NCBI GenBank assembly: GCA_011037195.1
Contig: JAAEAF010003399.1
Coordinates: 1-64,000 of the forward strand
Source: Triatoma infestans
Lineage: Eukaryota; Arthropoda; Insecta; Hemiptera; Reduviidae
Direction: 5' to 3'
Length of the DNA stretch: 64,000 nt
Below, one piece after another: positions 6,681 through 32,497 of this stretch; position 1 is the first letter of the stretch; each line of letters begins with the position of its first letter. Below the pieces are notes generated by a model. That model worked only from the letters and a program-made list of their open reading frames with translations, did not search any database and was not told the origin of the DNA. The position numbers were made by a program, and so were the translations under genes.

Positions 6681-7222
6681 ACACAGCCAATAGTGTTTAT
6701 TTCATTAGTTGAATTCCAACGTTTCGTGCACTTAACGTGCCATTATCAAGGAGTACATTTTTTACATTCTGAAAATAATTTTTATATATATACCTATTAC
6801 ATATATGTTAAATTAGGTTTACAACGTTTCTATTGAATTCCATCACACTAATTACCTTATAGATTATTGTATTGGTCGAGAGGCTTCGTCCATGATTAAA
6901 AATTATTTTTAAATTTTTTATTTTTATCCATATATCCTTAATTTCCTAATTAGTGTGAGGAAAAGGATATATGGATAAAAATAAAAAATTTAAAAATAAT
7001 TTTTAATCATGGACGAAAGCCTCTCGACCAATACAATAATCTATAAGGTAATTAGTGTGATGGAATTCAATAGAAACGTTGTAAACATAATTTAACATAT
7101 ATGTAATAGGTATATATATAAAAATTATTTTCAGAATGTAAAAAATGTACTCCTTGATAATGGCACGTTAAGTGCACGAAACGTTGGAATTCAACTAATG
7201 AAATAAACACTATTGGCTGTGT
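6681..7222. repeat. Near-perfect 260-bp inverted repeat (foldback element)
   Basis: The left arm 6681-6940 and right arm 6963-7222 are reverse complements along their whole length. I find only about two differences (one substitution near 6809/7093 and one extra A near 7018). The 22-base centre is TTAATTTCCTAATTAGTGTG-like. Each outer part contains a hammerhead-like core (plus-strand copy at 7151-7188). No ORF and no clear target duplication are seen. Such high arm identity implies recent formation or ongoing conversion. Confidence 0.9.
7151..7188 (+). ncRNA. Hammerhead-like core, TTGATAA type
   Basis: Read 5' to 3': TCC; core TTGATAA (7154-7160); one extra T; GGCAC (62-66), loop, GTGC plus a bulged A and C (72-77); GAAA (7178-7181); CGTT; GGA. 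TCC pairs with GGA as stem I, and ACGT is a self-complementary stem III. Relative to the canonical CTGANGA, core positions 3 and 8 are both changed (C to T, G to A), which preserves their pairing. The mirror copy is on the minus strand in the left arm of the inverted repeat. Confidence 0.5.
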
Positions 7223-7390
7223 AAATGGTTCAAATTAATTAAAATTAACCAGTATAAGTAAAATCAAAAAACAGCATAAAAATTAAAAAAGTAATCCCCA
7301 TGAATTTTCTTGAGTGCCAAATCCAAACAAATAATTACAAGTGATGAAAAGTGGATATATTTTTGAAAAATCCCAAAAAACGTAATCAGT

Positions 7391-7762
7391 ATGTACCTTA
7401 AAGCCAATGTAGCCGAACCAGAGAGAGATTGGCCAAGTTCGGTTCGGGGAAAAAAGTCATGCTTTGCTTTTCGTGGAACTTTGAAGGTGTTTGGCATTCT
7501 TGAGCTTGTTCCAGGACGGCAGAGCTGTTTTGACTCTGAACTTTATACTGAACGGTTGGATAGAGTTTATGAAGTCTTTAAAAAGACCCCCTTTTTTAAC
7601 CGAAATAAAACGGAGTTGGAAGGAGTTTTGCATCAGCCTGCCTACTGCTTCCAGATGTTGCACCCCTTATTACGATCTTTTGTTTCCGGCCAAAATGGCT
7701 CACTTTTTTCTCTTCCACAAAGGATGAAAGTTTTTGAAAATTATGAAGTACTGCGAGATTAG
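7391..7762 (+). CDS. Unrecognised 123-codon ORF
   Basis: An ATG-started ORF of 123 codons lies just right of the large inverted repeat. I recognise no domain, signal peptide or membrane segment. It contains a mildly basic, F-rich segment (KKTPFFNRNKTE near residues 64-75). The region has no visible splice partners or promoter signature. It may be chance or part of an unrecognised transposon. Confidence 0.2.
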   Translation: MYLKANVAEPERDWPSSVRGKKSCFAFRGTLKVFGILELVPGRQSCFDSELYTERLDRVYEVFKKTPFFNRNKTELEGVLHQPAYCFQMLHPLLRSFVSGQNGSLFSLPQRMKVFENYEVLRD

Positions 7763-8036
7763 GCCATTTCTTACATTACACTTTCCCAGAAAGAGATCAT
7801 TCAGTCCTTTTTTTCGCTTTAATCGTTTCCGAGTTCCATTCGGCTTTTTTCTTTGGGTTTTCTGAACAACAAAGTTTATATAGGGCTGAGTTGTTAGCCA
7901 GCGCCTATCTCCTACTTGGGATTTTGGGAGTTTTGTCACCTAGTCCTCCATAGCTTAAGAGTGTGAATCATCCTTGGTTTAGCTCCTAGCCTTTGAGGTT
8001 CCAACTCCTATCATGCAAGGCAGCATGAGATACTTC
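7763..8036. other. Unassigned sequence
   Basis: No supported feature between the 7391-7762 ORF and the SINE remnant. Confidence 0.3.
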
Positions 8037-8168
8037 ATTTTTTTTTTGTAAGGTGCATAAACATCTATGGTCATTGGCGGCCGGAGCCTTCTCACCACAT
8101 GAGTTGTATAGGTTCCTAGGAAGAAAAATCTAAGGATAGCACTTGAGGTAATCCCTTCCCTGATATAA
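8037..8168 (-). repeat. tRNA-derived SINE, internally deleted copy
   Basis: The minus strand reads GGGAAGGGATTACCTCAAGT, then CCTTAGATTTTTCTTCC, TAGGAACCTATACAACTCAT and GAGAAGGCTCCGG. It matches the SINE copies at 12134, 31655 and 33913. Most of the tRNA-like head is missing: the box A-like start runs straight into the TGCCCTTAGA junction, so box B is lost. Confidence 0.65.
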
Positions 8169-8631
8169 AAAGAATGGCGCCACCAACTGACAATTTTTTT
8201 TTAATGAAAAATGCCACCCAGGTTGGGTTCCTGGATTGTCGCGTATACCCACCCATAAAGTAGCCCCTAACGCTGAGCGTGAAGCTCCAAATACAAGGAA
8301 AGGAACTTAACCTTCCTAAACTAGTCCCAACCTACTGGTCCCTCCTCCCCAGTAGATATTCCTGGGGGAGACAAGGATCCTAACCTCCCTTCCAAAACTG
8401 TTTAAAATTGCTATATGCACCCTTGCACACTATGCTTGTTCATTCAACCATGCACACCACTGTGCCCGTCAATACTTAATATTATTCCTGGGGGGTACCA
8501 GGAAACCCTCCTACCTCTATCCTTACAAACCAGCCTAGATCTAGGGGCCATAACTACATCGCTAGCCTGGAATCTGCATTCATGCAACATCCACGCAATA
8601 AATTATCTTCATTCCAACATGCAATCTACCA
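8169..8631. other. Unassigned C-rich sequence
   Basis: An 80-codon ORF at 8415-8657 has no recognisable domain. No repeat is identified. Confidence 0.3.
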
Positions 8632-8689
8632 GAAAAACACTTGAGTTTCCGGGTTGAGACCGCGTCAATGGTTTGGCTTAAAAACCGAA

Positions 8690-8719
8690 GTTCGCCCATG
8701 TTGCAATGAACCTCTTCAG
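8690..8719 (-). ncRNA. Hammerhead-like core, degenerate (left arm)
   Basis: The minus strand gives CTGAAGA (8719-8713), a GTTCATTGCAACATGGGC stem region, then GAAC instead of GAAA. The core is mutated, so catalysis is unlikely. Confidence 0.35.
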
Positions 8720-8787
8720 GGTCGTTACACCTTGAAAACCGATATGGCTGAAAGCATTGTCTTATCGGCTTTCAAGATGTAACGATC

Positions 8788-8823
8788 CTGAAGAGGGTCA
8801 TTGCAACATGGGCGAAACGTCGG
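8788..8823 (+). ncRNA. Hammerhead-like core (right arm)
   Basis: CTGAAGA (8788-8794) is followed by GGGTCATTGCAACATGGGC and GAAACGTC then GG. The core bases CTGANGA and GAAA are exact and the ACGTC cleavage-side sequence is present. Stem II pairs poorly here (GGGTCAT against ATGGGC), while the copy at 12945-12985 keeps GCTCAT. Confidence 0.45.
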
Positions 8824-8873
8824 TTTTTTAGCTAACCATTGACACGGTCTCAACCTGGAAACAAATGTTTTTC

Positions 8874-10000
8874 ATGAAAATGGCCGCTGAAACGTAAAAG
8901 ATCATGCATCTTCCTACCAAAACAGTTCCCAGTTCCATAGCGACCCAATCAATTCTCCTTTTCAATGCTTCTTTCGCAAATCACCTAAAACGCGGCACCA
9001 TTTTCGAGCAGCAGAGACATACTGCTGTTCTCCAAGGCAAACGTTGAACCCAATGTCACCAGCCATGAAATACATGTGGATATGCAATAACGCGTGGTCC
9101 TATCACATGACATCCCACGAAAGCCCCGAAGGCGCTGGCGCCTTATTTGGGGGAACTTCCTTATTTGCTGCAGCTAGCCTATATATATATCTGTAGGCTG
9201 TTCGCTCTCTGCAACCTGCGGAACCGCCCAGTAGCTGAGCCCCGTCGTCTTGGAATGGTGTCACATGGCTGGAAGACGAGATTAGGATGATAGGAGATTT
9301 TCATCTGTAAAGGTGATGTAAAATAGGTAAAGGAGTTATGCCGTCAGACTGAAGTAAGCGTTTTTTATGTTTACGTTTAAATAAAACTGTTTTTATGCAC
9401 AACAGCTTTTCTAACCTCATTTATTGGATACAACTTAAACGACCGGCTGAATATTATCAATACTAATTAGAATCATAATTTATGTGAGTTACCGACGCCA
9501 TTAGCAATTTTTTCTTTTAGATTATGTGATTATATAATAATAAAATGCTTTAAATACTCCAAAACAGGAAAATGCACAAAAAAAATGGATATTTTTATTA
9601 GCAAAATTGTATTATAAATTCTCAGGTACAAGGTGGATATGTGAATTTAAAGCAATTCGTATTCGTATTTGTACACAACACACAACTAATAGTAATTTTA
9701 AATCTTAAAATAAAAGTAATAAATTTAAGAATAAATAAATTTATGTATATAATATCCAAATTTTTGTATCTTTTTTTAAAAAAATTTATTTATTTATTTA
9801 TTTATTGTTTATGTTGCTGTCAAAATTAGGTAGTCGAGTATTTTAAAAGAAAATTCGAAAACTGTGAAAATTTAGGCCTAAATTTAATATGTTTTATGGC
9901 TTCAGTGTGATGGTGGCAAAAGTTTGGTGTGAATCATTCACATGACTTTCTCTTGTTGCCGGCACCGCATGCCATCCGTGAACCACACTCCCCAGCCTTT
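8874..10000. other. Unassigned AT-rich region
   Basis: No supported gene. A CCTATATATATATCTG TATA-like run lies near 9178-9193, followed by a GC-richer stretch, which could be an LTR promoter, but no second LTR is seen. A (TTTA)n run lies at about 9783-9806. At 9927-9954, GTGTGAATCATTCACATGAC and CTTTCTCTT match a motif also seen near 11785, 19895 and 24836. Confidence 0.35.
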
Positions 10001-10520
10001 TTGGTCCATTCTACCCTTACTTAGTTGTCAGAAAATGATCAGTAAGTTACTGAAATGACGGTTTCAGATCAGGCTCCAGTGGGCATGATCATCGCAGCCA
10101 GAGTCTCCACTTCATATTCGTGCGGCACGTTTTCTGTTTTGGTCTACATTGAGTCGCAAACAAAATGATGTTTACCGAGAGGCAGTAGTTGAAAAGTTAT
10201 GCGAGGCCCTCTGTACGCGTGAGGGCCGGTTAGATAATGAACTGCCTCGTAGAATCAACGTGGCCGGTTTTCGACTGCTAACTGGCCATGACTGCTTACC
10301 AATATCATCTGTGGCGAATAGGATAGTGGGCAGCCAACTTGCCCTCTATGTAGTGTGGGGAAAGACATGTCGAGCGAGCACCTACTGAGATGTGCCCTGC
10401 AATGTTCTCGCCATGATTTGGGTATTATCGCGCAGCCAGGTTTTACCCAAATGGCTGCCTTTTATTGGACTGCTTGCCAACTAATTGCTCAATGCAGAAT
10501 GGAATGTGAAAACTGTACTT
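10001..10520 (+). pseudogene. LINE post-RNase H C-terminal fragment
   Basis: From about 10149 the plus strand reads VAGFRLLTGHDCLPISS, then in another frame CPLCSVGKDMSSEHLLRC. The LTGHD plus CPLC..HLLRC pattern is the Cys/His tail found after RNase H in several insect LINE ORF2 proteins. One frameshift separates the two parts. No upstream RT is seen. Confidence 0.6.
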
Positions 10521-10845
10521 TGTACTAATGCTATCCCCAGTCCTGGCTCGACTTTAGAATGCAGATACTGTGGGGGATGTGGGGCAAGGTGGAACAGTGC
10601 GAAGCGATTGTGTGAAATTTTTCCTGGAAGATTTTGCAAAATGGAGATTTTGCTCTATTGACGCCGGAGTGTCTAATTCTAGTCCTATAATACTCCCCAG
10701 CCTCAACACCGCCACGGAGTACTTGAACCGTGTACCAGCTATTAGCATATTCTTTCAGTACCAAACAGATCAGATTCATTGCTTCAATCAAGAGCTATTT
10801 ACTCAGCTCTGTAGAGAAATCTTAAACGAAATTATATTCTGGAGT
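10521..10845. other. Unassigned sequence
   Basis: Overlapping ORFs on both strands (86 and 135 codons) carry no recognisable motif, and one runs into the inverted repeat at 10850. I treat them as chance. Confidence 0.35.
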
Positions 10846-10849
10846 ATTT

Positions 10850-11045
10850 TATCCGTTGTAGCATGCATATTCCTTTTATTCCTGACCGGTTTCGGATTTT
10901 CATCCATCGTCAGAGCAAATTCACCAAGTTCGTGTAGAGAGTTCACTTCAACGCATTGGTTAGTGAATTTGCTCTGACAATGGATGAAAATCCAAAACCG
11001 GTCTGGAATAAAAGGAATATGCATGCTACGACGGATAAAATACCA
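10850..11045. repeat. Foldback element with GAAA-capped hammerhead-like core
   Basis: The left arm (ATTTTATCCGTTGTAGCATG onward) and the right arm (ending CATGCTACGACGGATAAAAT) are reverse complements, centred near 10945. Each arm contains the core CTGACRA, GGAT, GAAA, ATCC. A single-arm relative lies at 36490-36640. Confidence 0.75.
10881..10917 (-). ncRNA. Hammerhead-like core with GNRA-capped stem II
   Basis: Minus strand: CTGACGA (10913-10907), extra T, GGAT, GAAA loop, ATCC, GAAA (10893-10890), CCGGTC, AGG. Stem II is perfect with a GAAA tetraloop. ACCGGT is a self-complementary stem III and GTC would be the cleavage triplet. Stem I pairing is weak. The opposite-arm copy (10974-11011, +) has CTGACAA and AAAA, so it is decayed. 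Confidence 0.5.
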
Positions 11046-11104
11046 GATGTTATCCCAGCATTGCGGACCCATCCACATATTCAACAGAAGTTATATTCTC
11101 TTAA

Positions 11105-11690
11105 TTAATTTCCCTAGTAAGAGGAAGTATTGCGATCGTGCCAGATTTTCACCCGAAATACATGTTTTGTGGTCCCTTCAATGATCTGAAAAAATATGAT
11201 CTTTTATTTAGGTATCCACTGCCATTTTCATGAAAAACACTTCGAGTTCCCGGGTTGAGACAACGCGTCAGTGGTTTTCTAGAAACCATGACGCGCGGTC
11301 TCAACCCGGAAACTAAAGTGTTTTTCATGAAAAAAATGATTTTAGCGACTGGTATATGTGTGTGTGTGTTTTTTTTATTAACAGATATCTCAAAAACGAA
11401 AAGTCGTAGGAAGCTCAACAAACTTGGCATTCCGTTTAATGCACTACCAAATCGCGAAAGATTTCGGGCAAAATCCATTTCAACCAGAAGTACGACTTTA
11501 CTTAATGTTTTTTTTTTTTTGTAGTTTTGTGTGATTTTCTTCCAATGATTTCGTTTAAAATTTGTATTACTATCTACACACATAAATACCCATCACTTTT
11601 ATTGGAAACATTTTCCCAGGTAAATTGATTTTGGGGGTTCTTAAGAATACAGTAGCGTTATGCTTTCCTCTAAATGTATCACTTCAGTAT
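11105..11690 (+). repeat. Rep-1 repeat with a nested short foldback
   Basis: Contains GTATTGCGATCGTGCCAGAT, ATACATGTTTTGTGGTCCCT, TTTTAGCGACTGGT, a GT tract, ATATCTCAAAAACGAAAAGT, CATTCCGTTTAATG, AGTACGACTTTACTTAATG and the ACACATAAATACCCATCAC 3' block. Between the GGTCCC block and the TTAGCGACTGG block sits a foldback insertion at 11224-11333. The 144-codon minus ORF across it is not supported as a gene. Confidence 0.65.
11224..11333. repeat. Short foldback element nested in Rep-1
   Basis: Arms TTTTCATGAAAAACACTTCG and the reverse complement ending GTGTTTTTCATGAAAA meet near 11280 with only a TTTCTAGAAA-type centre. The outer block GGTTGAGAC..CGCGTCA..GG is shared with the 8632-8873 element; the ribozyme-like middle part is absent, so this is an internal-deletion derivative. 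Confidence 0.75.
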
Positions 11691-12133
11691 TTTACCACCT
11701 CCATAATATTAATAGACAGAAGTATTGAATAACGTTGCAATTTTAATGAATATTTTCTTGATTAAATTGTATTAATTAGTAAGAGAAAGTCGTGTGAGTG
11801 TTTCACACCAGCCTTTTTTTTTTTTTAATATTTTATTACATCTGTGTAATTCGCAATAAAATTATTTTAAAAATCAAAGTTTGTGTAAAGTACAAAAATA
11901 TTATATATAAATTTTTAAAATGTTTTTTGTAATTAAAAAAAAAAACTCGTAAAACACAGTAGCGCTCAGTTTGATGTAGTGGATGGATTTATGTGGCCAA
12001 AAATGGCAGCTCTAATTTTTTTAGCGATGTTTTTTTTTTATAATTTAAATATTTTGCAAAAAAAAATTAATGTATTTTGCTGGATCGGCTTCCGCCTAGG
12101 TTGAAACTACGGGGTGGGTTAAAAGGGGTGAAA
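11691..12133. other. Unassigned AT-rich sequence
   Basis: Contains AAGAGAAAGTCGTGTGAGTG followed by TTTCACACC at 11781-11809, the reverse complement of the motif at 19892-19926. Otherwise poly(A)/poly(T) rich with no gene. Confidence 0.35.
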
Positions 12134-12335
12134 AGGAAGGGAATAGTTAAGTGGTTAGCGTACTGGACTCCCACGCGGAGAACCCGGGTTAGAGTCCAGC
12201 TGCGCTACCCTTAGAGTTTTTCTTCCTAGGAGCCTCTACAGCTCACTGTCCGGTGATGGACAGTGTTGTTTGTAACGAGAGAACACTGTCCGGAGGCCGG
12301 CAGTGCACTAAGAAGGCTCCGGGCGCCTTAAATTT
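12134..12335 (+). repeat. tRNA-derived SINE
   Basis: Begins GGAAGGGAATAGTTAAGTGG (box A-like TAGTTAAGTGGTTAGCG), then a GGACTCCCACGCGGAGAACC anticodon-arm-like region and GGGTTAGAGTCC in the box B position. The tRNA-unrelated body follows (CTTAGAGTTTTTCTTCCTAG, CTCTACAGCTCACTGTCCGG, CCGGCAGTGCACTAAGAAGG). It matches the copies at 31655 and 33913. RNA polymerase III transcription is inferred from the boxes. Confidence 0.75.
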
Positions 12336-12389
12336 AAAAAAAAAAAACGGGGGGTGAAGTATTGCGATCGGGTCAAAAGTAGCCTAACC

Positions 12390-12890
12390 AAAGTGGGTGT
12401 TCGGAATAGACTTGTGTGCTGGGACACGCTGGATTTCTGGGCAATAAGATAGCAGATGCGCTGCCAAGGCAGAGCTCGAAAGACATTTTCATAGGTGATG
12501 AACCATTTTGCGGCCTGTCCAGAAGCCAAACATCCATGAAAGGTTGTTCCTATACATAAGAAACCACAGTCGGATGATTATAAGAATAATTATAGGTCTA
12601 TTGTCCGGGAATTTGTAGGCTGTACACCAGTTAGCACTTATAGTGGATGCGATGTGCCGGATACTGAAAGGTTGAGGAAGAAATCCCCGTTACAAATTTT
12701 GTGAGAATGTGCCGGCCTAGGCGGGGATAGTGTTTCCACAGTTGGGAACAAGCTGTGACTGCAGCTTTCAGCACTGCTAAGCCTGCTTAAAGAGGACGAA
12801 GCTGGAAGACAACTTCTAGAGGATCCCTAATAGACCTCCTTGTTATGTCACGGTGGAATGAAGGTTTAGGCATCTCTTTTTCCAATTCTA
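12390..12890 (+). pseudogene. RNase H LINE fragment
   Basis: Frame-broken plus-strand reading gives a GHAGFLGNKIAD-like stretch near 12420-12460 (RNase H His block), FIGDEPFCGLSRSQT, and later EEETPVTNFVRMCRP, equivalent to the TPIHLMTDC Cys/His block at about 23330. Multiple stops. Family is the same as, or close to, the 22635-23612 copy. Confidence 0.45.
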
Positions 12891-12944
12891 ATATAATCTG
12901 ATCTTAGGTTTCAAGGTTGGAGACCGCGTCAGTGGTTTGCTAGA

Positions 12945-12990
12945 AACTGACGTTTCAACCATATTGCAATGAGCTTCTTTCAGGCTAGTT
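12945..12990 (-). ncRNA. Hammerhead-like core downstream of a Penelope-like RT
   Basis: Minus strand: CTGAAAGA (one base inserted relative to CTGAAGA), A, GCTCAT, loop TGCA, ATATGGTT, GAAACGTC, AG. It lies about 30 bases after the Penelope-like coding fragment on the same strand. Hammerhead motifs have been reported in terminal repeats of Penelope-like elements, so the placement fits. The inserted base in the core suggests this copy is inactive. Confidence 0.5.
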
Positions 12991-13019
12991 TCACTTCAAA
13001 AAGCTAATGCACCAATGAA

Positions 13020-13560
13020 CCAATGAAGAAAAGGGGCGGCGCTCCTTATTCCGCCATCTTAGCTGGCGGATGACGAGGTCTAAGTCTTACATCCCACATC
13101 CCTCCTGCCAGTGTTTTATAACCTTGTTCCGCTTTTTCTCTCTCTCCTTTCCCTGAACAGGGGCAGCCATGTTCTGCTCAGACGTAGTCCATCAGATCTC
13201 CTTTTCGACAATTTTCCTCATATTCAATTTTCCGTTGACTCTCTTTACGACACTTTCGTAATAATTGTTTGTTATATTGTGCTTTGCCAGAAATTTAAGA
13301 AATCTCCTAAACTCCTTGCACATTATGGGAGGATAGATCTCGTTTTATCTCTTCTTTCCTCTATCTTCTCAGGTTTCCTGATACCACGGTTGATCAACTA
13401 AGTGATCAAACCTTTCTTCTATGTAGTATCTTGGAGTGAACGAACTCTTCTTCAAGTATCAGTTAGTATGGGTTTTCTTCCGGTATACTTTATGTCCCAA
13501 ATGTTCGATCCTTTTTTTTTTTCATCCGAACTAGTAAATCCAAAAAGGGGAACGCTTTCT
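13020..13560 (-). pseudogene. Penelope-like element RT fragment
   Basis: The minus strand carries LGHKVYRKKTHTN (13508-13470), the highly characteristic block near the end of the Penelope-type RT. Downstream in other frames are PPIMCKEFRRFLKFLAKHNI and SVVKRVNGKLNMRK. Stops are frequent. The 13111-13401 and 13402-13656 plus ORFs are antisense shadows of this fragment. The hammerhead-like motif follows on the same strand. Confidence 0.6.
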
Positions 13561-14449
13561 ATTCTCCAAAGAGGTCACTCATATGGTCTCAACGTGGAAA
13601 ACTCAAATTTGTTTTTTTCTAATGTAATCACACTCAGGCATACACCACATCTGTAACCAGCTTTTTTATGGTAAGCCCAAACGAGCCGAGTTTCTAAATA
13701 TGTTAAAAGATAAAAAGTCAGATTTTGATGGCTGCGGTGCCGGGGTATAGCCTACCAGAGGACTTTAATCTAATCTAGGGGCCATTAAAAATCATACATT
13801 TTTGGAGTATATAACTCAATTTTGAAAATATAATACGATTCGCAATACTTCCTACTTATTAGTGTAAAAAAAAAATTACCAGATTTATAACAAAAGTTTC
13901 AGCCTTGGACTTAATTTTTGCAAGATCAATGCATTAGTGCATTGTCATACAGGAAGTGTGTATAATGTATTCCAAAAAAAAAAAAAAAAAAAAAAATTGT
14001 TTTTTTTTTTTAAATTCGCTGATTATAAATTCTACCATTGCAAATTACAAGCCAACATAATACAATCAAGAAGATTTTCATGCTTGTAGCAAAAAATTTG
14101 TGACTGCACCTCGTTTTTTTCTGTTTTTTTTCCATTTTCTTTGGAATTTTCATTTTGAGTTTACTATTTTCCAAAATACTGCCCTCTAATATTTATTAAA
14201 TAAAAATTGTAAATAACTATAAAATGACTGTAAATGTAAACAATTCAGTTGTAATTTAGTTTAAGTAAAACATTGTGATTAATTTTTTTTTTGTATTTAA
14301 ACTTTTTAGCAGTTTTTTGATTTTTTTTTTTTTCTGGAAAAATTGCCTTACCTTGTTTTGTAAAAAAAAAAAAAAAAATATATATAAATTAAAAACATAC
14401 AAATTTTTGGCTTCTTTATTGAATTTGACATGATCACAATAGAATAGAA
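13561..14449. other. Unassigned AT-rich region
   Basis: Long A and T runs at 13974-13996, 14000-14012 and 14363-14378. CGCAATACTTCCTACTTATT near 13850 is the reverse complement of the Rep-1 start, so a Rep-1 end may be present. No gene. Confidence 0.35.
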
Positions 14450-18522: not shown

Positions 18523-18839
18523 TTCGTTGTGGTGGTTGGTTCCGCAGAGCTGGAAAGTATCAGAGACATTTTCCGTGGTAGCCTGCTTCATTTTGTGGCC
18601 ATCGACCGGTTTCGGGCGTTCGCCCATCTTCAGGATGCGTTTTTCAGACAGTGTGAAACACAGACAAATTCAGTTTACTCTCAAATTCACCACAACAACT
18701 TGTAACCTGGTATCTTACTCAGGTGCAGCCAGTTTCTCAAATAAAATTTACTCAATAACAAAAAACTATGGTATGAGACCGGAAAGACATTATGAAACCA
18801 CAAAATGAAGCAGGCTACCGCGGAAAATGTCTCTGATAC
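18523..18839. mobile_element. 317-bp non-autonomous element inserted in LINE-M
   Basis: It is flanked by the 7-bp direct repeat ATACATT (18516-18522 and 18840-18846). Removing it makes the LINE-M ORF1 reading continuous (KGGMY joined to FLAEF), which proves an insertion. Near its ends are inverted repeats (TATCAGAGACATTTTCCG, GGTAGCCTGCTTCATTTTGT and complements), but one end carries a further roughly 37 bases outside the repeat. The minus strand contains a hammerhead-like core. The window start holds another copy end. Confidence 0.85.
18599..18638 (-). ncRNA. Hammerhead-like core inside the 317-bp element
   Basis: Minus strand in order: CATC (18637-18634), CTGAAGA (18633-18627), extra T, GGGC, loop GAAC, GCCC, GAAA (18613-18610), CCGGTC, GATG (18603-18600). 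CATC/GATG form stem I, GGGC/GCCC stem II, ACCGGT is self-complementary stem III, and GTC is a canonical cleavage triplet. The one departure from the hammerhead consensus is the single T between the core A9 and stem II. Best-formed copy in the window together with 32127-32164. Confidence 0.55.
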
Positions 18840-22460: not shown

Positions 22461-22581
22461 TTACTCAAAGTCATCATCGCTTTGGTCGTCTTCATCAGTC
22501 TCCCGGATGGTTCGCTTCTTGGCAAAGCGCACTGGTTTGTGCTCGGAAGAAAACGGAGGCTTATCCAGATCGCCTTCGTAT
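22461..22581 (-). CDS. TXNDC9: TXNDC9 exon 4 and stop
   Basis: 121 nt. Acceptor TTTTGCAG followed by ATACGAAG. Encodes YEGDLDKPPFSSE, a basic KKRTIRE segment and the acidic tail, ending in TAA at 22463-22461. Confidence 0.93.
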
Positions 22582-25500
22582 CTGCAAAACAGACACGATT
22601 TAATTTACAATACAAATTTATAAATATATAGCCAAGATTGGGTCCGTCTGGTGTGATACCTGATAATTACCTCCGTAGGTCTGGAGCTACGGTCTATTTT
22701 GAGACCGGAGATCATTTGGCAAGTATCTCTTGGTGAATGGACCACAGTCTTCCAGACTGACGTTTATGCAATTCTTTCTTGTGTCTTGGATGAGAGAATA
22801 CGTAACACTAACTTAAAAGTGTTTGAATCTGCTCGGACAGCCAAGCTGCGCTGAAGGCGCTGAGTTCATGGGTTTTCACTTCCAGGTTGGTGTTAGAATG
22901 TTCTAAAACACTGGAAGAACTTTCTTCTCTGAAGGATGTTCTTCCAGTCTGGGTGCTAGGTAATATGGGAATTTTTGGGAATGAGGAGGTGGATAGGTTT
23001 GCCAAATTAGGCGCCTCTCTCCCTTTCATTGGTCCCGAGCCTGCTGTTGGCGTGTCTTCTGGCTCATGTCTGCCAGGCTTCCAATCATGGACAGCTTCAC
23101 AGCATTCATCCTTATAGATGAGCTCAGTTGGTTTCCGGCAGTCCAAAATGCTCATCGGGGGTCCGGACAAGGCCATTAGTGAGACGTTGCTGTGTTTTTC
23201 ACGGACTGCTCTCGGGCATCTGGTTGGATCTCTTACTGGACATTGTGGTTTAAGGAGACATCTCTACATAATGGGGCTCATGCCGGATTCATTTTTAGAG
23301 TCTGTGAGACAGAGGAGGAAACACCCATCCATCTTATGACTGACTGCCTGGTTTGTGAGGAAATTAGGTTCAGGACCTTTGGTCGAATAGGATGTCTGTG
23401 GAAGAGCTTAGGCTATTTCCGCTTAAGGTTATTGTCCGATTTATTCGGACTGCGGTGAATCTTAGATGGATTAGACCCGGGTCTGGATTTTTGTTCTAGA
23501 CCCAGTTTGTTGTTGTTTTTCTTGGGGTGGCTATATGGGCCCATTGGGGCTTTGGATAGCGTAGGGTTTGGTCCCTCCCCACAAACAAATAATAATAATA
23601 ATAATAATAATAATATAGCCACACTGTGGCTTACAATAATCTCAAAAGGTGTTTATAGCCCCTTTAAATCCACAGGAAAGCCTGTTGTACTTCGTGGAGA
23701 GATTCCAGTCACAGAGGGTCCAATACAACATAACCCACACCGTTAACAAAATGGATTAGCTAGGTTCTCCTTAAAACATCACGTTGATCTCACCCCCACC
23801 CAAACGTCTTAAATTTCTTAATCAAAGCAGCAATCTGGAATATATTTCATAAATTCAAATATTTTGGAATAAATCATAGGCGGTCTCCTTTTGTACCAAA
23901 ACCGTGTGAGAGGATCAATTCTGCCAGCCTAAAGATTTCCATTTGAGGAAACTGATTAAACCCTATCAGCCTTCTACATAGGTGTGGATCTCATAGTCCT
24001 CAAACAGATACGTACAGCTTTGTATGGAATATTATCTATCTTGGACAAAACTGTATGATAGGCAAATAATATAAATAATTAACAGTATTGCGTAAATAAT
24101 ATAACAGGAGTTCATGTATTAGCCATCTATGCCGATGATGTGGCCATTTTGGCTTGGTCATAGGAAAAGCAATGGAGATAGTCAATTCAAGACTGCTTGG
24201 GCATCCTCATCGAAAATTAGTAATCAAAAATAAGGTTTATCTTGTCTCGGTAACCTGGGCATTCAGAGTATAGGGGTAACAAGGCGGCAAATCGCCTAGC
24301 CGGGGTAGGGCTTACCAAGAGATACCATTACACATGCTTGCTAAATTCATCACAAAAATGGTGGGTGAAAACTTCTAACCTGCTAACTGGACCCTTTATA
24401 TTTAAGAAGCACGGGCACAGCACGGGACTGACAATGGATAGCTGAGTCGCTTCAAGCTCTTGCCTTCACAGAGTTTATAAATTCAAAATGACTGTTAGTT
24501 TTACCTTATTATACCTGACTGAGCGATTCTCCATTCCATCAGTTCCGTGGGAAAGTCGAGGACATTGCCAAACTTTGTTATGCCAATAAGTTTTCCTATA
24601 GTCTTATTGTTTTTTACGAATAATACAGTTGGTACACTATTGATTCCTAACCTCCCTGCAACAATAAAATTTTATTTTCAGACAAGATATTTCAGCAAAC
24701 AGTCCCATAAAAGACTCCGGATGCCATTGGCCAACATCACTCTTTCTAAATCTTTGAACCACGTTAAAATGAAACAAAAACTATTAGCGATTCTTTCCGG
24801 CACTCACCCATCTTCATTTACAGGGGCATAACAACTGTGAAACACCCACACCTCATTCTCTTACCACTTAATCAAGATTTTTTTTTTTAAATTGCAACGT
24901 TACAATGTTTAGTTGGGCTGGACATAAACATAGTGGTGGCAATTTTACTTGTATACATGAGCGGCCTTATGTGAAGCACTCTATGGCAAAACCAACAAAG
25001 CTTTGGTAAATTTAATTTTGAACTACCTCCAATACACCTCAAAAATCGATCTTTTCAGAAAAACGTTTTAAATAAAAGTCATACGTTTCTATCTATGCAG
25101 CAAGCATTCCAAGTTTAAAGGAAATCGTTGTAACCGTTTTCTAGGAAATTCCAAAAAAATCTCGAAAACCTATTCTGTAAAATCGCACTTTCGGTTTACC
25201 ACTTTTTTGAAATTTTGAATTCCATCATCTGTGTACTATGTAGCTTGGCATTACCATATATTGTACCTCCAAAACATCGATTTTGCCGGGAATTGTTTCA
25301 AATAAACGTGATAGGTATTTATGTGTGTAGATAATATAAGAAGTTTAATGAAAATCGTTGGAGCCGTTTTCGAGAAAATCGCTCGAATCTAGTGGTAACT
25401 AGAGCAATGTGTGCATACCTTTTAAAAACGGCGCCTTCTCATAGTTGATTTTGATAAAGCGGGTCTCTAGGTGTCTTTTAGCTAGAATAGCTAAGTGATG

Positions 25501-28500
25501 ATCAAATACTGTGCATGCTTCTGAGCTAGATCCATAGAAATGGACGACAACATAACTACTGGCCTTACAAACCGCAAAGAAATCTTTCTCTTCAACTTCT
25601 GTGAATGTTCCGTGACCCTGAGAACACAGAAATTAACGTAAGTATAAATACATCATTATTAAGTGAAGGGATTTGTAGAAGAAGGCTTAATGCCTTAGCT
25701 CAGAGTGGCAAAGTGCAGTTCTTTTGGGTTTCCGGACATGCGGGAATAGAGGGCGGACCGGTTGGTTAGGGTGGGATCCTCCTCACCATTTTGTGGTCCT
25801 GAGCCAGCCGTTGCCGTCACTAAGAGGTTCTGCGACGGACAGACTTTGGAAGACGAGAGTTTTGGGGGCACGACGGGGTGCCTCCAGGCCGAAAGATTTA
25901 TTAAAGGTAATTAAGTAGGGGGTTTCGGATTACTTCCTGTCCCTGAGTAGGATAAGATTGAGGATTTTAGTAGGTATGGTGACTGGACAGACATAGGCGG
26001 CTAGTCAATTACATAAAATAGGGAGGACGTCCAGTCCCACATGTCAGAATTGTGATGATGGAGTTAGGGAAACGGTGTATCACTGTCAGTCCCTTTATTT
26101 CCAAGGAAAAGCATGAGGGTTTCTTTTTAAGTAGGTTCAACCGGATTCTAGAGGCTCAGAAAGAGTTAGTTGGCGACTTTGAGAAGATGAATAGGATGCT
26201 GAACAGGATTTTGGTAGTAGAAAGGAAGGTAAAAGAAATGTCAGGAGGTGACGAGGGAGAGATCAACAGAAGGATTGAGCAATTGGAGAAAAGACTAATA
26301 GAAGGAATGAAGGAGGAAAATAGGTTGGTGATGGAGAAAGTGAAGGCTGAGGTGGAAAGGAGCAGGGTAATGTTAGAAAATGAGGATGCCCAGCGGCAGG
26401 AAGATGTGGAAAGACTAGAAAAGTGCATGAAAACCCAAAAGAAGGAATTGGAGAAAAAGCTGGATGAGGGTTTGGTCAAGTTAAGGCATGAAAGTATTGA
26501 GAGGGTGGAGGGCCACCTGAAGAAGTTAGCAGAGGAGCAGCGAAGAGTGACGGACAGTTGGAAGAGTGTGAAGGACCATATCAAAGTAACGGAGGAGAAA
26601 TGTAAGAAGATAGAAGGTGGTGTTAAGGAGGTGAAGGAAGTTAAGGACCTGGTAGGTAGACTTGAGGGGAACTTGGAAGGAATTAAGGAATTTCAGGGTA
26701 CAAGTGGTTTAGTAGGAGGGGAAGTTAGAGCGTTTATTGAAGAAGTTAAGAAGTTAGAAGGGTCAATTAGGACAGGGGTTGGCGAGTTCCAAGAAGTCAA
26801 GGACTTGAAAGAGGTGATGCGGGAGGAGCAGGCAATGAGAAGGGCTGAATTAGGAGAAATCGTCAGAACGATGAAATCGGTGGAGAGAATGGAAGTTGAC
26901 CACGATGTAAGAACGGAATGGAGTGAAGTTGTGAAGAGAGGGCGAAGGAAAAGAGGGCCAATGGTCGTAATTGAGCCTACAGAGAGGTTACAAGAAGCAG
27001 ATGTTAGGAAGGAGTTGGTGCGGTGTCTGGATCCGGCAGAAGGAGAAGTAAGAATTAAGTCGTTAAGGAAACAAGGACGGAACTTCGTGTTGGAGGTGCA
27101 TGACGAGGATGATATAAGAAGGTTAAGGGAAATGCCGAAAATAGAAGAAGGAGGTTTCAAGGTCGATGGAGAACCTAATATGTGGAATCCAAGGGTGGTG
27201 GTATACGATGTGGATAGAGAGATGGCCGAAGAAGAAGTGAAGAGGTCAATATGGAAGAAGAACGCGCGGATGATGACAGGCATTGGTGAAGAGGAATGGG
27301 AAAGGGACTTTAAATTAAAGAATAAAATAGGGCCAAGAGGGTTTAGTACTACGTCGTGGGTGGCACAGGTGTCGCCTACGTTATTTGGGGTGTTGTTGCG
27401 CGAAGGAAGAGTGTATGTAGGGTTGAGGTCATGCAGAGTGAGGGAATATGTAGGTGTTACGAGGTGCTTTCGGTGTCAGGGGTTGGGGCATATAGGAAGA
27501 GTGTGTGGTCGACCAGTGACTTGTAGCAGATGCGGCGAGGAAGGGCACCATATAACAAGATGCGCCTATCGGGGTGGGGAATTCCAGTGTGCTAATTGCA
27601 AGCGTATGGGATTTCGGGAGTTAGGTCACTCGGTGGTATGGAGTGGGTGCCCATACTTACAGATTTTCAAAAGTAGGGTGTTGGCGAGGACTAAGTATGA
27701 CTAATGAGAGTGATTCAAATCAACGCGGATCGGTCGAGGAAGGTGGCGGCGGAAATTAGGGAAATAGTGGGTAAAGAGAAGATTGATGTGGTGTTACTGC
27801 AAGAACCTTATGTCTGGCAGGATAAAGTAGTGGGTTTTGGGATGGGAAATAGGGTGGTGACATGTGAAGGAGGGGGTAGGCCTTGGGCGGCGATTGCGAT
27901 TATGAGTAATGACATAGGGGTGATGAGGGTACAGGAGTTGTGCGATCATCATTGTGTCTGTGTGGAGTTGTTGTTGGAGAAGCAAGTGCGAGTCTATGTG
28001 TGCTCCATCTATTGCCAGTTTTCGGAGGACATTGAACCATACTTGGGAAGGTTGAAGAAGATTAGAAGAAAGCTGAGGGGGGAAAAAATACTGGTTGGGA
28101 TGGATGCCAATGCGAGATCACAATTATGGGGTGGGGAGGTAAGGGACGAACGGGGCATAAAATTGGAAGATTTAATAGCAGAAGATGGATGGTGGGTTGT
28201 TAATGTACCTTCGGAAGGACCTACGTATGAGACGAGGAGAGGGGCCAGCTACATCGATGTGACACTTCAAAGTCAAGATATGGTTACGAAGTGGGTATTA
28301 AGGGACTGGACATCAAGTGGGCATAAAATAATAGAAATGGAGATTGGATTCAGGAAGGATGATGGTAAGTTAATAAGGAAAGGGACAGAGAGGTATAGAA
28401 GATATAATTTGATGAAGGCGAACTGGGAGGGGTACCGGGGTAGGTTACAAGGGTTGGAACAAGGTATGGGGGAAATACGGGTGAACAATAGATTGGCAGT

Positions 28501-31500
28501 AATGAAGTTGGAAAGGGGAATAAGGCGGATGATTTTGGAGGCCGCAAATAGTGCTGTACCTAAGAAGAGTTGTGGAGGGCGAGGGAATCGTTGGTGGGAT
28601 AATGAGTTGGAGGAGAAAAAGAAGGAGGTACTCGCCATGAGGAGGAAATTCAAGAGGGAAATGGGGGAAGAAGAAAGAAGAAGGGTGGCAGGCGTATTTA
28701 AAGCGTGTAGAGCAGAGTATAGGCGACTAATTAGGGAGAAAAAGGAAAGAAGCTGGGATGACTTCGTCAAGGAAGAAACTGAGAAAGATGCGTGGGGATT
28801 GCCCTACAAGCTGGCGGTGGGGAAAGTCAAACCTAGAGAGGTTATGAGTGCGATTGGAGGTGAAGACGTAGTAACTTGGGAAAGATCAGGGAAGGTGTTG
28901 ATGGATAGCTTGATCTTGGATGATTCACGTGAAGAAGAAGGTGAATACCATCAGATGGTGAGAAGTGAGGTTGCAGGATTGGAGGCAGCTGAGGGAAGAG
29001 TAAGAGTGACAGAGTCCGAGCTAGCGGCAGCGATAAGCGGATGTAAGAATGGGAAGGCTTCGGGTTGGGATGGTGTGGCTACGGAATTTGTGAAGGAAGG
29101 ATTTCCGATATTAAAGAAGAGGTTGTTGGATCTCTATAACGGATGCTTCAGGTATGGTGTGTTTCCCAACGTCTGGAAGAGAGGTATAGTTGTAACCCTG
29201 TTAAAAGGTGACGGAAGAGATGCATCGCTGACGTCCTCATATAGGCCCATATGTTTGTTGCCGGTCTTAGGAAAGATTTTAGAAAGAATTGTGGTTACGA
29301 AGTTGGAAACGGTTTTTTATGAGAAAGTGTCTTGGAGACAATATGGATTTATGAGGGGGAAATCTACTGAACAGGCTATTATGAAAATGAGAAGTATTGT
29401 GGAGAGTAGGTCAGAAAGTTATGTGATGGGGATCTTCTTGGACATGTCGGGGGCTTTTGATCGCGTATGGTGGCCGGGGGTGTTGAGAAGTATGTGGCAA
29501 ATGGGTATTGGAGGGGACAATTACAGACTCTTAAAAGACTATTTAAAGGGGAGATGGGTCGAAATGAGATAGGGGGCTTGGAAAATAGGGAAAAGAGTGA
29601 ACAGGGGGTGTCCACAAGGGTCGGTATTGGGGCCACAGTTATGGAAATTGGTGTTCAACGAATTAATAGAAGAATTAGAGGAGGAAGAGGGAGGAGAGCT
29701 AATAGCATATGCGGATGATGGTGCACTGATTATATGGGGTAACTCAAGAAGGCAACTGGAGGAAAGAGGAGCGAGATATTTGGAACGGGTTATGGTATGG
29801 ACGGAAAAGAGTAAGATGCTCATATCAAGAGAGAAGACGGTAACCATGTTATTGAAAGGGAAATTGGCAGCAGATAGGCAGCCTAGGATTGTGGTAAGAG
29901 GGGCGGTGTTGAGGTCGGTAAGTCAAGTAAAATATTTAGGAGTTACTTGGAGTAGGGGTTTGGGGATAATGAAACACCTGGAAGAGACTACAGCGAAAGC
30001 GTATGGTAAAATGATGGCGCTTTTGAGAATCATAAAGGATCGGGGGGTGTCGTATGATACGATTAAAAGAGTTTATAATGGAATGTACTTGGCCATAGTG
30101 GCGTATGCAGCAGGATCATGGGTAGACAAGATTGGGGTAAAAGGAAGGGAAAAGTTACTAAGGGAACAACGAAGAGTGCTGTTAAGGATGATCAAGGGAT
30201 ACAAAACGATGTCAAGGGAGGCATGCTTGGTGATAGCGGGGATTCTACCTATTGATTTGGAGCTGGAGAAGAGAAAATTGATGGGAATAATCAGGACGGA
30301 GGGCAGTGTGAATTGGGGGGATCGACAAATAAGTGCAGGCGGGCATAAAGGAAAGTTAAGAAAGGCGATGTTAGAGATATGGCAGAATAGGTGGGAGGGG
30401 TCGAGTAAGGGCAGATGGACATATCGTTGGTGGCAGAATGTTGAGGATAGGCTAAACAGTGTTTGGATAGCTCCGGAATATTATATGACTCAAATGGTAA
30501 GTGGGCATGGGAATTTTAGGGCCAAGTTGTATGAGTTGGGTTTAAGTGATAATGATAGATGTGGTTGTGGAGAGTTAGATACAGCGGAGCATGTGATGTT
30601 TGGTTGTTCACAGTGGGGGGTAATTAGGAATGATTTGGAGCAAGTGTTAGTAAGGAAAGGGTTAAGAATGGAATATAAGGATTTGTTGAGTAGGGAAGGG
30701 TTTGTTCTGTTTAGAGAGTTTTGTAAGAAAGTGTTGGAGGAAAAGGAAAGAATGGATGTATTGGGTGATGTATAGGATAGGTTAAGAGTAGGTTAGGTAG
30801 ATTTAGTTGAGTACCTGATTAGTATAGTTAAAAAGGGGGCCCAGGAATATAGAGTACTGGTGCCCCATAGGATAGGGAATGGGAGTAGAGTGTGAATGTA
30901 TTTATGGGCGTGAGTGTATTTATTGAATGTGTGGGTGGTTATATGAGTGTAGTAGTAGGGTAAGGTTAGTAGTTTTAGTTAGGTTAGCTGAGTACCTGAT
31001 AGAATAGTGGAATTATGGCACAGGAATATAGAGTACTGGAGTCAGTAGGTTAAGGTATGAGTGTGAGGTATGCATGTATTTATTAGTGTGGTTGTAAGTT
31101 TGGAGGAGTGAGTGGTGCAACGGAATGAATGGCTTGGGGTTGGGGAAGGTACGGAAGACCTACCTCGCCTGGAATGGCACGGCAAGTCCAAGCGGGTGCC
31201 AGGAGGACGAGGTAAAACCGTAGGCGATGCATATATTGCATGGTCGGGCCAGTGACCATTCTAGGCCTTTAAGTAGGAGAATTTCCTACAAAATGGTACC
31301 ACGGGATCGTGAGCCGAGCCCGGCGGAGATTATCTCCGTTCTCACGAGTTGCGGAAAGGTTTCGTGGTGGTCGTGGTATCGCAGTGAGTAGTAGTGTCAG
31401 ATAGTAGCGTGGTGTATTTCTAGTTTTTTCATTTTCATGTTTCCCACTATGCTGGCACTAGGTTTCGAATTTTTGGGTGAGTCTCGCTCTCACGGGACAG

Positions 31501-32497
31501 CCTTGGAGGGTTGGAGTTGAAGGATATTGTAGACAGGCCGGTAGACTACAGGGGGAGATTAATTAGGGGGATGATTTGGGGGGATAAAAGTCATATTGGC
31601 TTAGGTCCCACACCGATTGGCACCCAGATTTAATTAAATAATAATAATAAGAGAAGGGATTAGGCACAGTGGTAGCGTGCTGGACTAGCAACGCAGAGTT
31701 CCCGGGTTCGAACCCAGCAGTGCTGCCCTTAGGCATTCTCTTCCTAGAAGCCTCTACAGCTCACTTCCTGGTGCTGGGTAGTGCACTGAGAAGGATCCGG
31801 GGGGAGGTACAATAGATCTTTAAGGTCGCACTGCAATATCCCCTATAACAATCTACATCTAAACATAACACTAAATAATCAAGTTTCAAATTTGAAAGAT
31901 ATTTTCCCCTATCATAACCTGCGACACCAGGATGTTACATAAGTTTTTGTACATGAAAAAGAAGCTGAACTTTAAAAAAGTCCGAAGAAAAATGTGTACT
32001 CCGAATCAGCTCGGTTTGTTTTTATGTAAATATTTTAAATTAAGAAGTTTTATGTGTTTTCTGATTATCAATCTGTTTTGGGCGTTAGCAGATGTTTCTA
32101 AGTAGTAACTACATATATAAATTAAAGCCTTGATAAAGACAGGAAATTCTGTCGAAACGTTGGCATAACTGAATGTCCCCCTTTCTTGACCGATCTTCAC
32201 CAAATTTCTTCATAAAATTACCTTAAGAGGTAATTTGGATAAAAAACGTTTACCACAGTAATATTACTGCTTATTCTTACAGCTATAAGAAAAAGTAAAC
32301 AAAATTATAATTAAAATAAGATACATTACATTGGCTCGCCATAATTCAAGCTGTTTAGCTTCCACTTTCATGGCGTTTAAACGTTCCATTCTTAATGTTT
32401 CAATATCATTAAACTTATCTAGTTCTGCGTCAACACGTTCTTCTACTTTGTTAACAACTTCTTTTAATAGTTCTGCACATTGTTTACTTGAATCCAT
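22461..32497 (-). CDS. TXNDC9: TXNDC9 (PhLP3), complete four-exon gene
   Basis: Coding exons 32497-32330, 25617-25419, 24655-24505 and 22581-22461 total 639 nt, 212 residues plus stop (human orthologue about 226). Residues 1-56 form the N-terminal charged helical region (VNKVEERVDAELDKFNDI). 57-123 include HFYGSSSEACTVFDHHLAIL with one Cys (91) where thioredoxins have CxxC, and FIKINYEKAPFL. 124-172 include INSVPTVLFV with the cis-Pro and DFPTELMEWRI. The acidic tail is DEDDQSDDDFE. The family is a cytosolic phosducin-like regulator of the CCT chaperonin in tubulin and actin folding. Splice phases agree at every junction and introns are GT..AG. Met 1 is chosen by homology; the open frame extends 33 codons upstream. 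Introns of 6712, 763 and 1923 bp hold transposons. Confidence 0.93.
22626..23621 (+). mobile_element. 5'-truncated RNase H LINE with 9-bp target duplication
   Basis: The 22635-23612 insert lies between two copies of ATATAGCCA (22626-22634 and 23613-23621). The paralogous intron at about 37170-37200 lacks the insert and has a single related GTAGCCA, so it is a pre-integration site. Coding remnants: SAWLSEQ-antisense region, PVWVLGNMGIFGNEEVDRFA (RNase H), KLGASLPFIGPEPAVG, LVGSLTGHCGLRRHL, TPIHLMTDCLVCEEIRFRTF. The 3' tail is (AAT)n at about 23588-23613. Confidence 0.85.
23622..24094. other. TXNDC9 intron 3 sequence shared with the 37-kb duplicate
   Basis: CACACTGTGGCTTACAATAA and the following about 90 bases match 37195-37290 with substitutions. 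No gene. Confidence 0.6.
24095..24460 (+). pseudogene. LINE fragment, RT YADD joined to RNase H
   Basis: ITGVHVLAIYADDVAILAWS is RT motif C with an intact YADD. Soon after, PGHSEYRGNKAANRLAGVG is the RNase H His block. The roughly 200 codons that should lie between are missing, so this copy is internally deleted. Inserted in TXNDC9 intron 3, same strand as the other RNase H LINE copy. Confidence 0.65.
24505..24655 (-). CDS. TXNDC9: TXNDC9 exon 3
   Basis: 151 nt. Acceptor TTGTTGCAG followed by GGAGG; donor ATAATAAG followed by GTAAAA. Codon 123, completed at this junction, is GGG (Gly); the duplicate exon at 38269-38400 would give GAG (Glu), as in vertebrate TXNDC9 (ERL). Confidence 0.92.
24656..25418 (-). 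repeat. TXNDC9 intron 2 with two Rep-1 copies
   Basis: Two reverse Rep-1 pieces lie at 25035-25170 and 25255-25390 (ATCGATTTTGCCGGGAATTG, TTTCAAATAAACGTGATAGG, ATTTATGTGTGTAGATAATA, GAAAATCGTTGGAGCCGTTT). At 24834-24862 is a GTGAAACACCCACACC plus CATTCTCTTACC motif, as at 19892. The two pieces may be a tandem pair. Confidence 0.6.
25419..25617 (-). CDS. TXNDC9: TXNDC9 exon 2
   Basis: 199 nt. Acceptor TTCTCAG followed by GGTCACGG; donor AAAAG followed by GTATGC. Encodes residues 57-122 plus the first base of codon 123: GHGTFTEVEEKDFFAV to EKAPFLK. Confidence 0.93.
25694..26105 (+). pseudogene. LINE-X 5' half, target of the R1-clade insertion
   Basis: RRLNALAQSGKVQFFWVSGH, AGIEGGPVG (RNase H His block), a broken stretch, ILVGMVTGQT, SQLHKIGRTSSPTCQNC and RETVYHCQSLYFQ. 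The Cys/His tail (CQNC..YHC) then stops abruptly; its continuation (ELKDIVDRPVD) appears at about 31500. The R1-clade LINE is therefore nested in LINE-X. Junction is about 26095-26105. Confidence 0.65.
26055..27704 (+). CDS. R1-clade LINE ORF1 (gag-like), 5'-truncated
   Basis: Open frame of about 549 codons. The first 15-17 residues overlap LINE-X coding sequence in another frame, so the true ORF1 is 5'-truncated at the insertion junction near 26100. Residues about 30-260 are Lys/Glu-rich coiled coil. Three zinc knuckles close the protein: CFRCQGLGHIGRVC, CSRCGEEGHHITRC and a longer CANC..H..C. Such proteins package the element RNA. Codons are strongly purine-rich. The stop overlaps the ORF2 start as TAATG. 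Confidence 0.85.
   Translation: MMELGKRCITVSPFISKEKHEGFFLSRFNRILEAQKELVGDFEKMNRMLNRILVVERKVKEMSGGDEGEINRRIEQLEKRLIEGMKEENRLVMEKVKAEVERSRVMLENEDAQRQEDVERLEKCMKTQKKELEKKLDEGLVKLRHESIERVEGHLKKLAEEQRRVTDSWKSVKDHIKVTEEKCKKIEGGVKEVKEVKDLVGRLEGNLEGIKEFQGTSGLVGGEVRAFIEEVKKLEGSIRTGVGEFQEVKDLKEVMREEQAMRRAELGEIVRTMKSVERMEVDHDVRTEWSEVVKRGRRKRGPMVVIEPTERLQEADVRKELVRCLDPAEGEVRIKSLRKQGRNFVLEVHDEDDIRRLREMPKIEEGGFKVDGEPNMWNPRVVVYDVDREMAEEEVKRSIWKKNARMMTGIGEEEWERDFKLKNKIGPRGFSTTSWVAQVSPTLFGVLLREGRVYVGLRSCRVREYVGVTRCFRCQGLGHIGRVCGRPVTCSRCGEEGHHITRCAYRGGEFQCANCKRMGFRELGHSVVWSGCPYLQIFKSRVLARTKYD
27702..27706 (+). promoter_or_regulatory. TAATG stop-start overlap
   Basis: The ORF1 stop TAA (27702-27704) and ORF2 start ATG (27704-27706) share one base. 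In the R1-clade element SART1 such a UAAUG junction has been shown to give ORF2 translation by coupled termination and reinitiation. The same mechanism is inferred here. Confidence 0.75.
27704..30775 (+). pseudogene. R1-clade LINE ORF2, one in-frame stop
   Basis: 1024 codons in one frame, interrupted only by TAG at 29570-29572. The endonuclease has MRVIQINADRSRKVAAE, LLQEPYV, VGMDANARSQLWG and SYIDVTL, but SSGHKI where SDH is usual. The RT has SSYRPICLLPVLGK, YGFMRGKSTEQA, FLDMSGAFD (motif A), CPQGSVLGP (motif B), IAYADDGALI (motif C) and QVKYLGV. The tail has CGCGELDTAEHVMFGC (CCHC). The stop falls between RT motifs A and B, so no full RT can be made without readthrough. The nearly clean frame indicates a young copy. 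Confidence 0.9.
30776..31485 (+). other. 3' UTR of the R1-clade LINE
   Basis: Contains two imperfect copies of a roughly 180-base unit (30781-30960 and 30961-31110), each with GAGTACCTGAT and an AGGAATATAGAGTACT hairpin loop. Many GTGAATGTATTTAT-type phrases follow. After 31130 is a GC-rich structured part with GGAGATTATCTCC near 31325. No poly(A) tail is clear; the 3' junction lies near 31480-31495. Confidence 0.6.
31490..31652 (+). pseudogene. LINE-X 3' half with (AAT)n tail
   Basis: ELKDIVDRPVDYRGRLIRG and SHIGLG match the end of the 4135-5060 copy (ELEIKDIVVKPVD, AHIGL). It ends in an AATTAAATAATAATAATAA tail at 31634-31652 and continues the fragment interrupted at about 26100. Confidence 0.6.
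31655..31875 (+). repeat. tRNA-derived SINE, best-preserved copy
   Basis: The head has GGGATTAGGCACAGTGGTAG (box A) and GGGTTCGAACCC (perfect box B), with GGACTAGCAACGCAGAG between them. The tRNA-unrelated body matches the copies at 12134 and 33913 and ends in ATCCCCTATAACAATCTAC. It abuts the LINE-X (AAT)n tail directly. Lies in TXNDC9 intron 1, opposite strand. Confidence 0.8.
32127..32164 (+). ncRNA. Hammerhead-like core, TTGATAA type
   Basis: GCC (32127-32129), core TTGATAA (32130-32136), extra A, GACAG, loop GAAATT, CTGTC, GAAA (32154-32157), CGTT, GGC (32162-32164). Stem I is GCC/GGC, stem II is five perfect pairs, stem III is self-complementary ACGT and the cleavage triplet would be GTT. 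Compared with 7151-7188, stems I and II differ in sequence but keep pairing. It lies about 170 bases inside TXNDC9 intron 1 on the antisense strand. Confidence 0.55.
32330..32497 (-). CDS. TXNDC9: TXNDC9 exon 1
   Basis: 168 nt encoding residues 1-56, MDSSKQCAELLKEVV to LELWRAN. The ATG is in a fair context (G at -3, G at +4). The donor is AAT followed by GTAATG, phase 0. Confidence 0.92.

Follow-up and report, generated by a model that had tools for sequence, protein, structure and literature searches.

Small hammerhead variants from Penelope-like elements are said to cleave as dimers, an observation reportedly due to Lunse 2017 and to Cervera and de la Pena 2014. Reviews describe thousands of minimal type I hammerheads dispersed in animal genomes, some of them residing in the pseudo-long terminal repeats (pLTRs) of Penelope elements and perhaps dimeric, and the role of the Penelope hammerheads has been called a mystery (PMC7761336). 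Here we analyse 64,000 nucleotides of Triatoma infestans DNA (assembly GCA_011037195.1, contig JAAEAF010003399.1, positions 1 to 64,000; hereafter the window), where ten hammerhead-like copies are distributed over seven insertions and fall into five groups, A to E (sites read in both orientations, parts counted). With a probability of roughly 0.8, we consider these loci to be retrotransposed end fragments, comprising a pLTR and the start of an open reading frame (ORF), of several Penelope-like elements (PLEs) or their non-autonomous derivatives, in which a minimal type I hammerhead lies at the start codon and, in C and D, an extra base next to the catalytic core is the middle base of that codon. 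The motifs most likely represent further examples of something already known, namely Penelope-borne minimal type I hammerheads.

In Poseidon of Anolis, the ORF starts at stem II with C3 and G8 located upstream of the start codon, the hammerhead cut falls 26 bp into the ORF and reverse transcription begins 111–118 nt into the ORF (PMC11167929). Two start sites are separated by an optional tail of 30–40 bp, each strand of the target undergoes cleavage and extension, and cutting by the ribozyme is seen only in the presence of protein (PMC11167929). Penelope insertions in Adineta vaga display head-to-head inverted pLTRs, duplications of 8–10 bp and a one-sided 31-bp tail, and the authors favour self-priming as the origin of palindromes (PMC3846280). 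The exchange of C3–G8 for U3–A8 is a natural covariation in several hammerheads, and such pairs are active in vitro (PMC3088659).

Each of these loci is predicted to carry stem I, stem II, the core and, instead of stem III, a palindrome of 4–6 nt. The copies, designated by group and position, are as follows:

7148–7190, plus strand: motif A 7154, core UUGAUAA (U3/A8) plus an extra U, stem II GGCAC whose 3′ strand has a single bulged A, palindrome ACGU
6713–6755, minus strand: mirror motif A 6749, identical to the main A copy
8782–8826, plus strand: motif B 8788, core CTGAAGA, stem II with a G.G mismatch
8681–8725, minus strand: motif B 8719, decayed, GAAC replacing GAAA
12944–12989, minus strand: motif B 12983, outside the palindrome, core CTGAAAGA with one base too many
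10879–10919, minus strand: motif C 10913, canonical core, ATG at 10907 formed by A9-U-G
10968–11008, plus strand: mirror motif C 10974, mutations G8A and G12A
36569–36609, minus strand: solo motif C 36603, canonical core, palindrome of stem III broken
18599–18639, minus strand: motif D 18633, single copy, canonical core
32124–32166, plus strand: motif E 32130, single copy, core UUGAUAA, extra A, stem II GACAG/CTGTC

All eight loci listed in an initial annotation of this DNA (7151, 10881, 12945, 18599, 32127, 8690, 8788 and 36574) exist, five of which (10881, 12945, 18599, 8690 and 36574) lie on the minus strand without this being indicated there, and the mirrors of 7151 (6713–6755) and of 10881 (10968–11008) extend that list by two. 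The single architecture ascribed to these loci is seen at 10881 and 18599, at 36574 with a broken stem III palindrome, and at 7151 and 32127 with U3/A8 (7151 also with the bulged A), but does not extend to 12945 (extra core base), 8690 (GAAC) or 8788 (G.G mismatch). Nor are the elements unrelated throughout, as had been claimed: C is homologous to D, and the three B sites constitute one family.

In C and D, the core follows the canonical order CUGANGA-N-stem II-GAAA, where one base separates A9 from stem II, with C 10974 having lost G8 and G12. The nucleotides of the minimal type I core (CUGANGA, GAAA and UH at the cut) are canonical in C 10913, C 36603 and D; the B copies and C 10974 deviate from them. 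A and E have in common a variant core, UUGAUAA...CGAAACGUUGG, in which C3/G8 is replaced by U3/A8 and the hairpins differ yet pair, and the exact words shared by the two are CCUUGAUAA and CGAAACGUUGG. Stem III is reduced to ACCGGU in C 10913 and D, and to ACGU in A, E, B 8788 and B 12983.

A strict descriptor (CTGANGA, offset 0–2, a stem II no shorter than 4 bp, GAAA) finds three matches in the window, two of them independent and every one at offset 1, compared with means of 0.075, 0.13 and 0.115 at offsets 0, 1 and 2 in 200 dinucleotide shuffles. The looser YTGANRA descriptor, which misses A (on account of the bulge) and every B copy, finds four matches, all at offset 1, against shuffle means of 0.87 at that offset and about 2.6 across the three offsets, and the loose motif alone is therefore weak evidence. 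For the gapped word CCTTGATAA-gap-CGAAACGTTGG of A and E, whose parts were picked post hoc, base composition predicts 2e-6 occurrences in the window. As an outside control, 27 primary-sequence matches were collected from viral and bacterial collections (16 + 9 + 2), and none of the 27, several of which are near-identical, has a stem II of at least four contiguous pairs at offsets 0–2. A scan of the window and of three elements with Rfam 15 returned no hammerhead, neither at gathering scores nor at E up to 10; the sub-threshold Rfam matches spanning the C and D palindromes are microRNA models that fit the long hairpin, and were rejected. We conclude that the hammerhead-like cores are real, not all of them being intact, and that the B family is decayed or doubtful.

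The extra base between A9 and stem II can be placed within a reading frame. In both C and D, an AUG is made up of A9, the extra U and the G with which stem II begins, and this AUG opens a conserved frame (MDENPKPV... in C, MGERPKPV... in D). The preferred reading makes the extra base a part of the start codon, specifically its middle base. The two ORF starts are:

10980–11086, plus strand, right arm of C: C ORF start MDENPKPVWNKRNMHATTDKIPDVIPALRTHPHIQ, 107 nt, open up to the insertion end
18557–18627, minus strand: D ORF start MGERPKPVDGHKMKQATTENVSD, 71 nt, open up to the end

A closely related ORF start is present in the solo copy of C, where it spans 105 nt and is likewise open to the end. 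The word GAAACCGGUC is coding in both C and D (PKPV). Residues 9–24, which lie past the ribozyme, align with a score of 18 and 4 of 16 identities, as reached by 0.19% and 0.4% of codon shuffles; the correct frame scores 50 and 49 versus 1–18 in the other two frames, and third codon positions are the least conserved. The stem II substitutions that separate C from D replace two amino acids, and both pairs are retained. A start-codon overlap from which the identity of the extra base as U follows is stated in PMC11167929; an explicit statement that the extra base is the U of the start codon was not met in the accessible text of that paper or of PMC3088659, PMC3846280, PMC10085705, PMC7229834, PMC7761336, PMC6155905, PMC6466107 or PMC11722881.

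The initial annotation had regarded the extra base as the possible mark of a variant hammerhead class. The base itself stands, since all strict matches fall at offset 1 and the slot is occupied in all five groups as aligned (B by hand and from decayed copies), and a structural subclass, in which folding or catalysis would require the base after A9 and the AUG of C, D and A would be secondary, draws on the same slot, which holds U, A or G and forms an AUG in three groups only. We nevertheless judge such a subclass unlikely, given the conserved reading frame that starts from this AUG in C and D and the published PLE with an ORF beginning at stem II (PMC11167929).

Conservation of the stems was assessed by family because MAFFT, applied to all nine copies, put the stems out of register. 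Between the two C copies and D, five of eight pairs in stems I and II are changed on both sides (0–2 in slid controls) and 91.7% of cells pair, compared with 19–46% when the 3′ sides are slid. Only 2 of 500 shuffles are as high in three measures, namely percentage paired, double changes and covariation score, and the pair-type count is uninformative (500/500 shuffles as high); the comparison comprises three sequences, two being close copies. For A and E, where the bulge shifts the ungapped alignment, pairs were counted by hand, giving double changes at two stem II pairs and one stem I pair. The alignments thus support retention of stems I and II by covariation in C/D and in A/E, but not in B, and the compensatory change and hammerhead identity put forward initially are supported to that extent.

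Covariance models built from the loci, as initially proposed, each find their own family in the window: the C/D model matches its three training loci and the untrained 10968 copy, and the A/E model matches E, A and the identical mirror of A, both with additional weak matches. The best extra match (53708–53733, E 0.04) was discarded as being without stem II. The predicted fold of E corresponds exactly to stem I plus stem II (z −3.62, none of 200 shuffles equally stable), and that of A comes close to stem I plus stem II with unexceptional stability (z −1.14, 25 of 200 shuffles).

The insertions that carry the motifs, with the duplications that flank them, are listed below (elements and duplications without strand assignment):

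6681–7292: element A, near-perfect head-to-head palindrome with arms 6681–6947 and 6958–7222 and a 70-nt one-sided tail
6671–6681: left target-site duplication of A, AATCCCCATGA, exact 11-bp repeat first spotted by eye
7293–7303: right target-site duplication of A, 11 bp, exact
8632–8873: element B, older palindrome, duplication not found
10841–11086: element C, palindrome with the tail confined to the right side
10828–10840: left target-site duplication of C, GAAATTATATTCT, match 12/13
11087–11099: right target-site duplication of C, GAAGTTATATTCT, match 12/13
18557–18839: element D, end fragment plus 42-nt inverted piece, within a LINE (long interspersed nuclear element) ORF1-like frame
36493–36638, minus strand: solo copy of C, ending 105 nt into the ORF, the end being set by the homology limit

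Four of the seven motif-bearing insertions (A, B, C and D) are head-to-head palindromes, with the 3′ ends outside and the 5′ ends meeting. Two of these four, A and C, combine a target-site duplication with a one-sided tail, by which one arm is longer (70 nt in A, 43 nt in C), and match the full set of inverted pLTRs, duplications and one-sided tail. Among 3000 random placements, duplication scores as good arise at 0.13% for A and 0.17% for C, the repeats having been seen before the ends were set. In C, the 3′ end falls about 110 nt into the ORF (at 107 and 105 nt), and the ends of D and A lie before or beyond this. The LINE ORF1-like frame, as read by eye, continues beyond D, and its LINE domains lie below Pfam cut-offs. 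The right arm of D, a 42-nt piece, may be a run-off product of a cleaved template, but this is no more than suggestive, given that the arm begins some 5 nt beyond where the ribozyme is predicted to cut.

The palindromes also bear on two further explanations. A, B and E have no open reading frame and might be non-autonomous retrozyme-like elements with hammerheads of their own rather than Penelope derivatives, such elements being common in animals (PMC7229834, PMC7761336). This appears quite unlikely, as the metazoan retrozymes described to date consist of units that bear a type I hammerhead and are repeated in tandem, head to tail, whereas no such array was detected at the loci, and as A and B are palindromic like C and D. 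Fold-back DNA transposons or miniature inverted-repeat transposable elements with chance hammerhead-like words, which would accommodate the palindromes in four of seven insertions and the near-chance count of the loose descriptor over all offsets, are highly improbable in view of the strict matches above shuffles, the double changes in C/D, the words common to A and E, the lack of stem II in the outside matches, the tail by which the C arms differ and the solo copy at 36493–36638, whose end agrees to within 2 nt.

Several observations weigh against the interpretation as Penelope end fragments. No attached Penelope gene was found, GIY-YIG being absent from the 20 of 204 frames of at least 70 aa that were put through Pfam, and the RVT_1 matches in 7 of these 20 frames carry no clade assignment. 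Target-site duplications are not detectable for B, D and the solo copy of C, and the 70-nt tail of A exceeds the 30–40 known from Poseidon. The frame of A reaches a stop at codon 4 after the AUG, and there is no AUG in E (AAG) or B (AGG in the B palindrome). The C/D and A/E covariance models retrieve neither each other nor B, and the case for one origin of all groups is architectural and does not come from sequence. Fold stabilities of C, D and B are unremarkable (z −1.84 to +0.39), as is that of A, and the fold preferred by C monomers hides the core, some of which pairs with the 3′ side. Finally, insertion persists in catalytic mutants of Anolis Poseidon, and none of the reads terminates at the predicted cut (PMC11167929).

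If the loci are Penelope end fragments, the PLE transcript would be cut after 24 nt of the ORF, past the start codon and short of the point, 64–107 nt into the ORF, where reverse transcription starts. We suggest that two PLE transcripts may pair via the palindromic stem III, or that the protein of the element may aid the folding of one; minimal type I hammerheads of this kind are probably dimer- or protein-dependent, and the fold modelled for the C monomer would fit dependence on a partner or protein. The palindromes could form by priming at both ends of a staggered break, followed by head-to-head joining of the two cDNAs that the enzyme makes, which we prefer, or alternatively by self-priming as proposed for Adineta, and the present data favour neither. 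Palindromic copies probably contain inert ribozymes, because some cores carry mutations and one arm can pair with the other.

A start codon within the catalytic core might act as a built-in switch, where A9 serves either the ribosome or the ribozyme and a cut after codon 8, past the AUG and short of the reverse-transcription start, decides whether a Penelope-like RNA goes to translation or serves as template, with the one-base slot being general, selected and kept even where the AUG is lost. We regard this switch as doubtful, but the idea that the same bases are contested by translation start and ribozyme core is worth testing. The overlap between A9 and the start codon, together with stem changes that preserve pairing and alter the protein, provides a concrete interpretation of the extra base and connects ribozyme folding, translation and priming in a way that can be tested. 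Moreover, the combination of core-AUG-stem II, palindrome, duplication and one-sided tail may provide a recognition signature for Penelope end fragments, which the Rfam models leave unreported in this window.

Other repeats were observed in the window. A long terminal repeat retrotransposon at 48998–53325 is bounded by near-identical repeats (48998–49230 and 53096–53325) and contains an RNase H/integrase ORF (49264–51261) and a 543-aa ORF that is env-like by eye. A long LINE-like element (26022–30772), with a 560-aa ORF followed by endonuclease/reverse transcriptase ORFs, has a strongly G-rich strand (GC skew about 0.5). Related short repeats at 12173–12307, 31691–31783 and 33943–34077, one with a GGTTCGAA-like box, are possibly a tRNA-derived short interspersed nuclear element. 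Further palindromes lie at 62191–62354 and 62448–62598, which neither hammerhead model matches at E up to 10, and a tandem repeat at 48122–48347 has a unit of 42 bp in 5.4 copies with 99% matches.

Compared with known systems, the motifs resemble the reportedly dimer-cleaving Penelope hammerheads in the diminished palindromic stem III and in being dispersed in animal genomes. A and E are akin to the U3–A8 hammerheads (PMC3088659), to which they add the extra base and a stem III of minimal size. The insertions share with Adineta vaga Penelope the head-to-head inverted pLTRs, the duplications, the tail on one side and a pLTR containing the ORF start; there, however, the inverted pLTRs flank an ORF or captured DNA, whereas here only end fragments are present, and a hammerhead is not mentioned in the accessible text of that paper (PMC3846280). 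Unlike Anolis Poseidon, the elements here are without an attached gene and carry predicted ribozymes, the tail of A is longer, and the copies are palindromic rather than tandem as described for Poseidon. The correspondence with Poseidon nevertheless encompasses an ORF beginning at stem II, C3/G8 preceding the start codon, a predicted cut at 24 nt versus 26 bp, C ends at 105–107 nt into the ORF versus a reverse-transcription start at 111–118, and an optional tail (PMC11167929).

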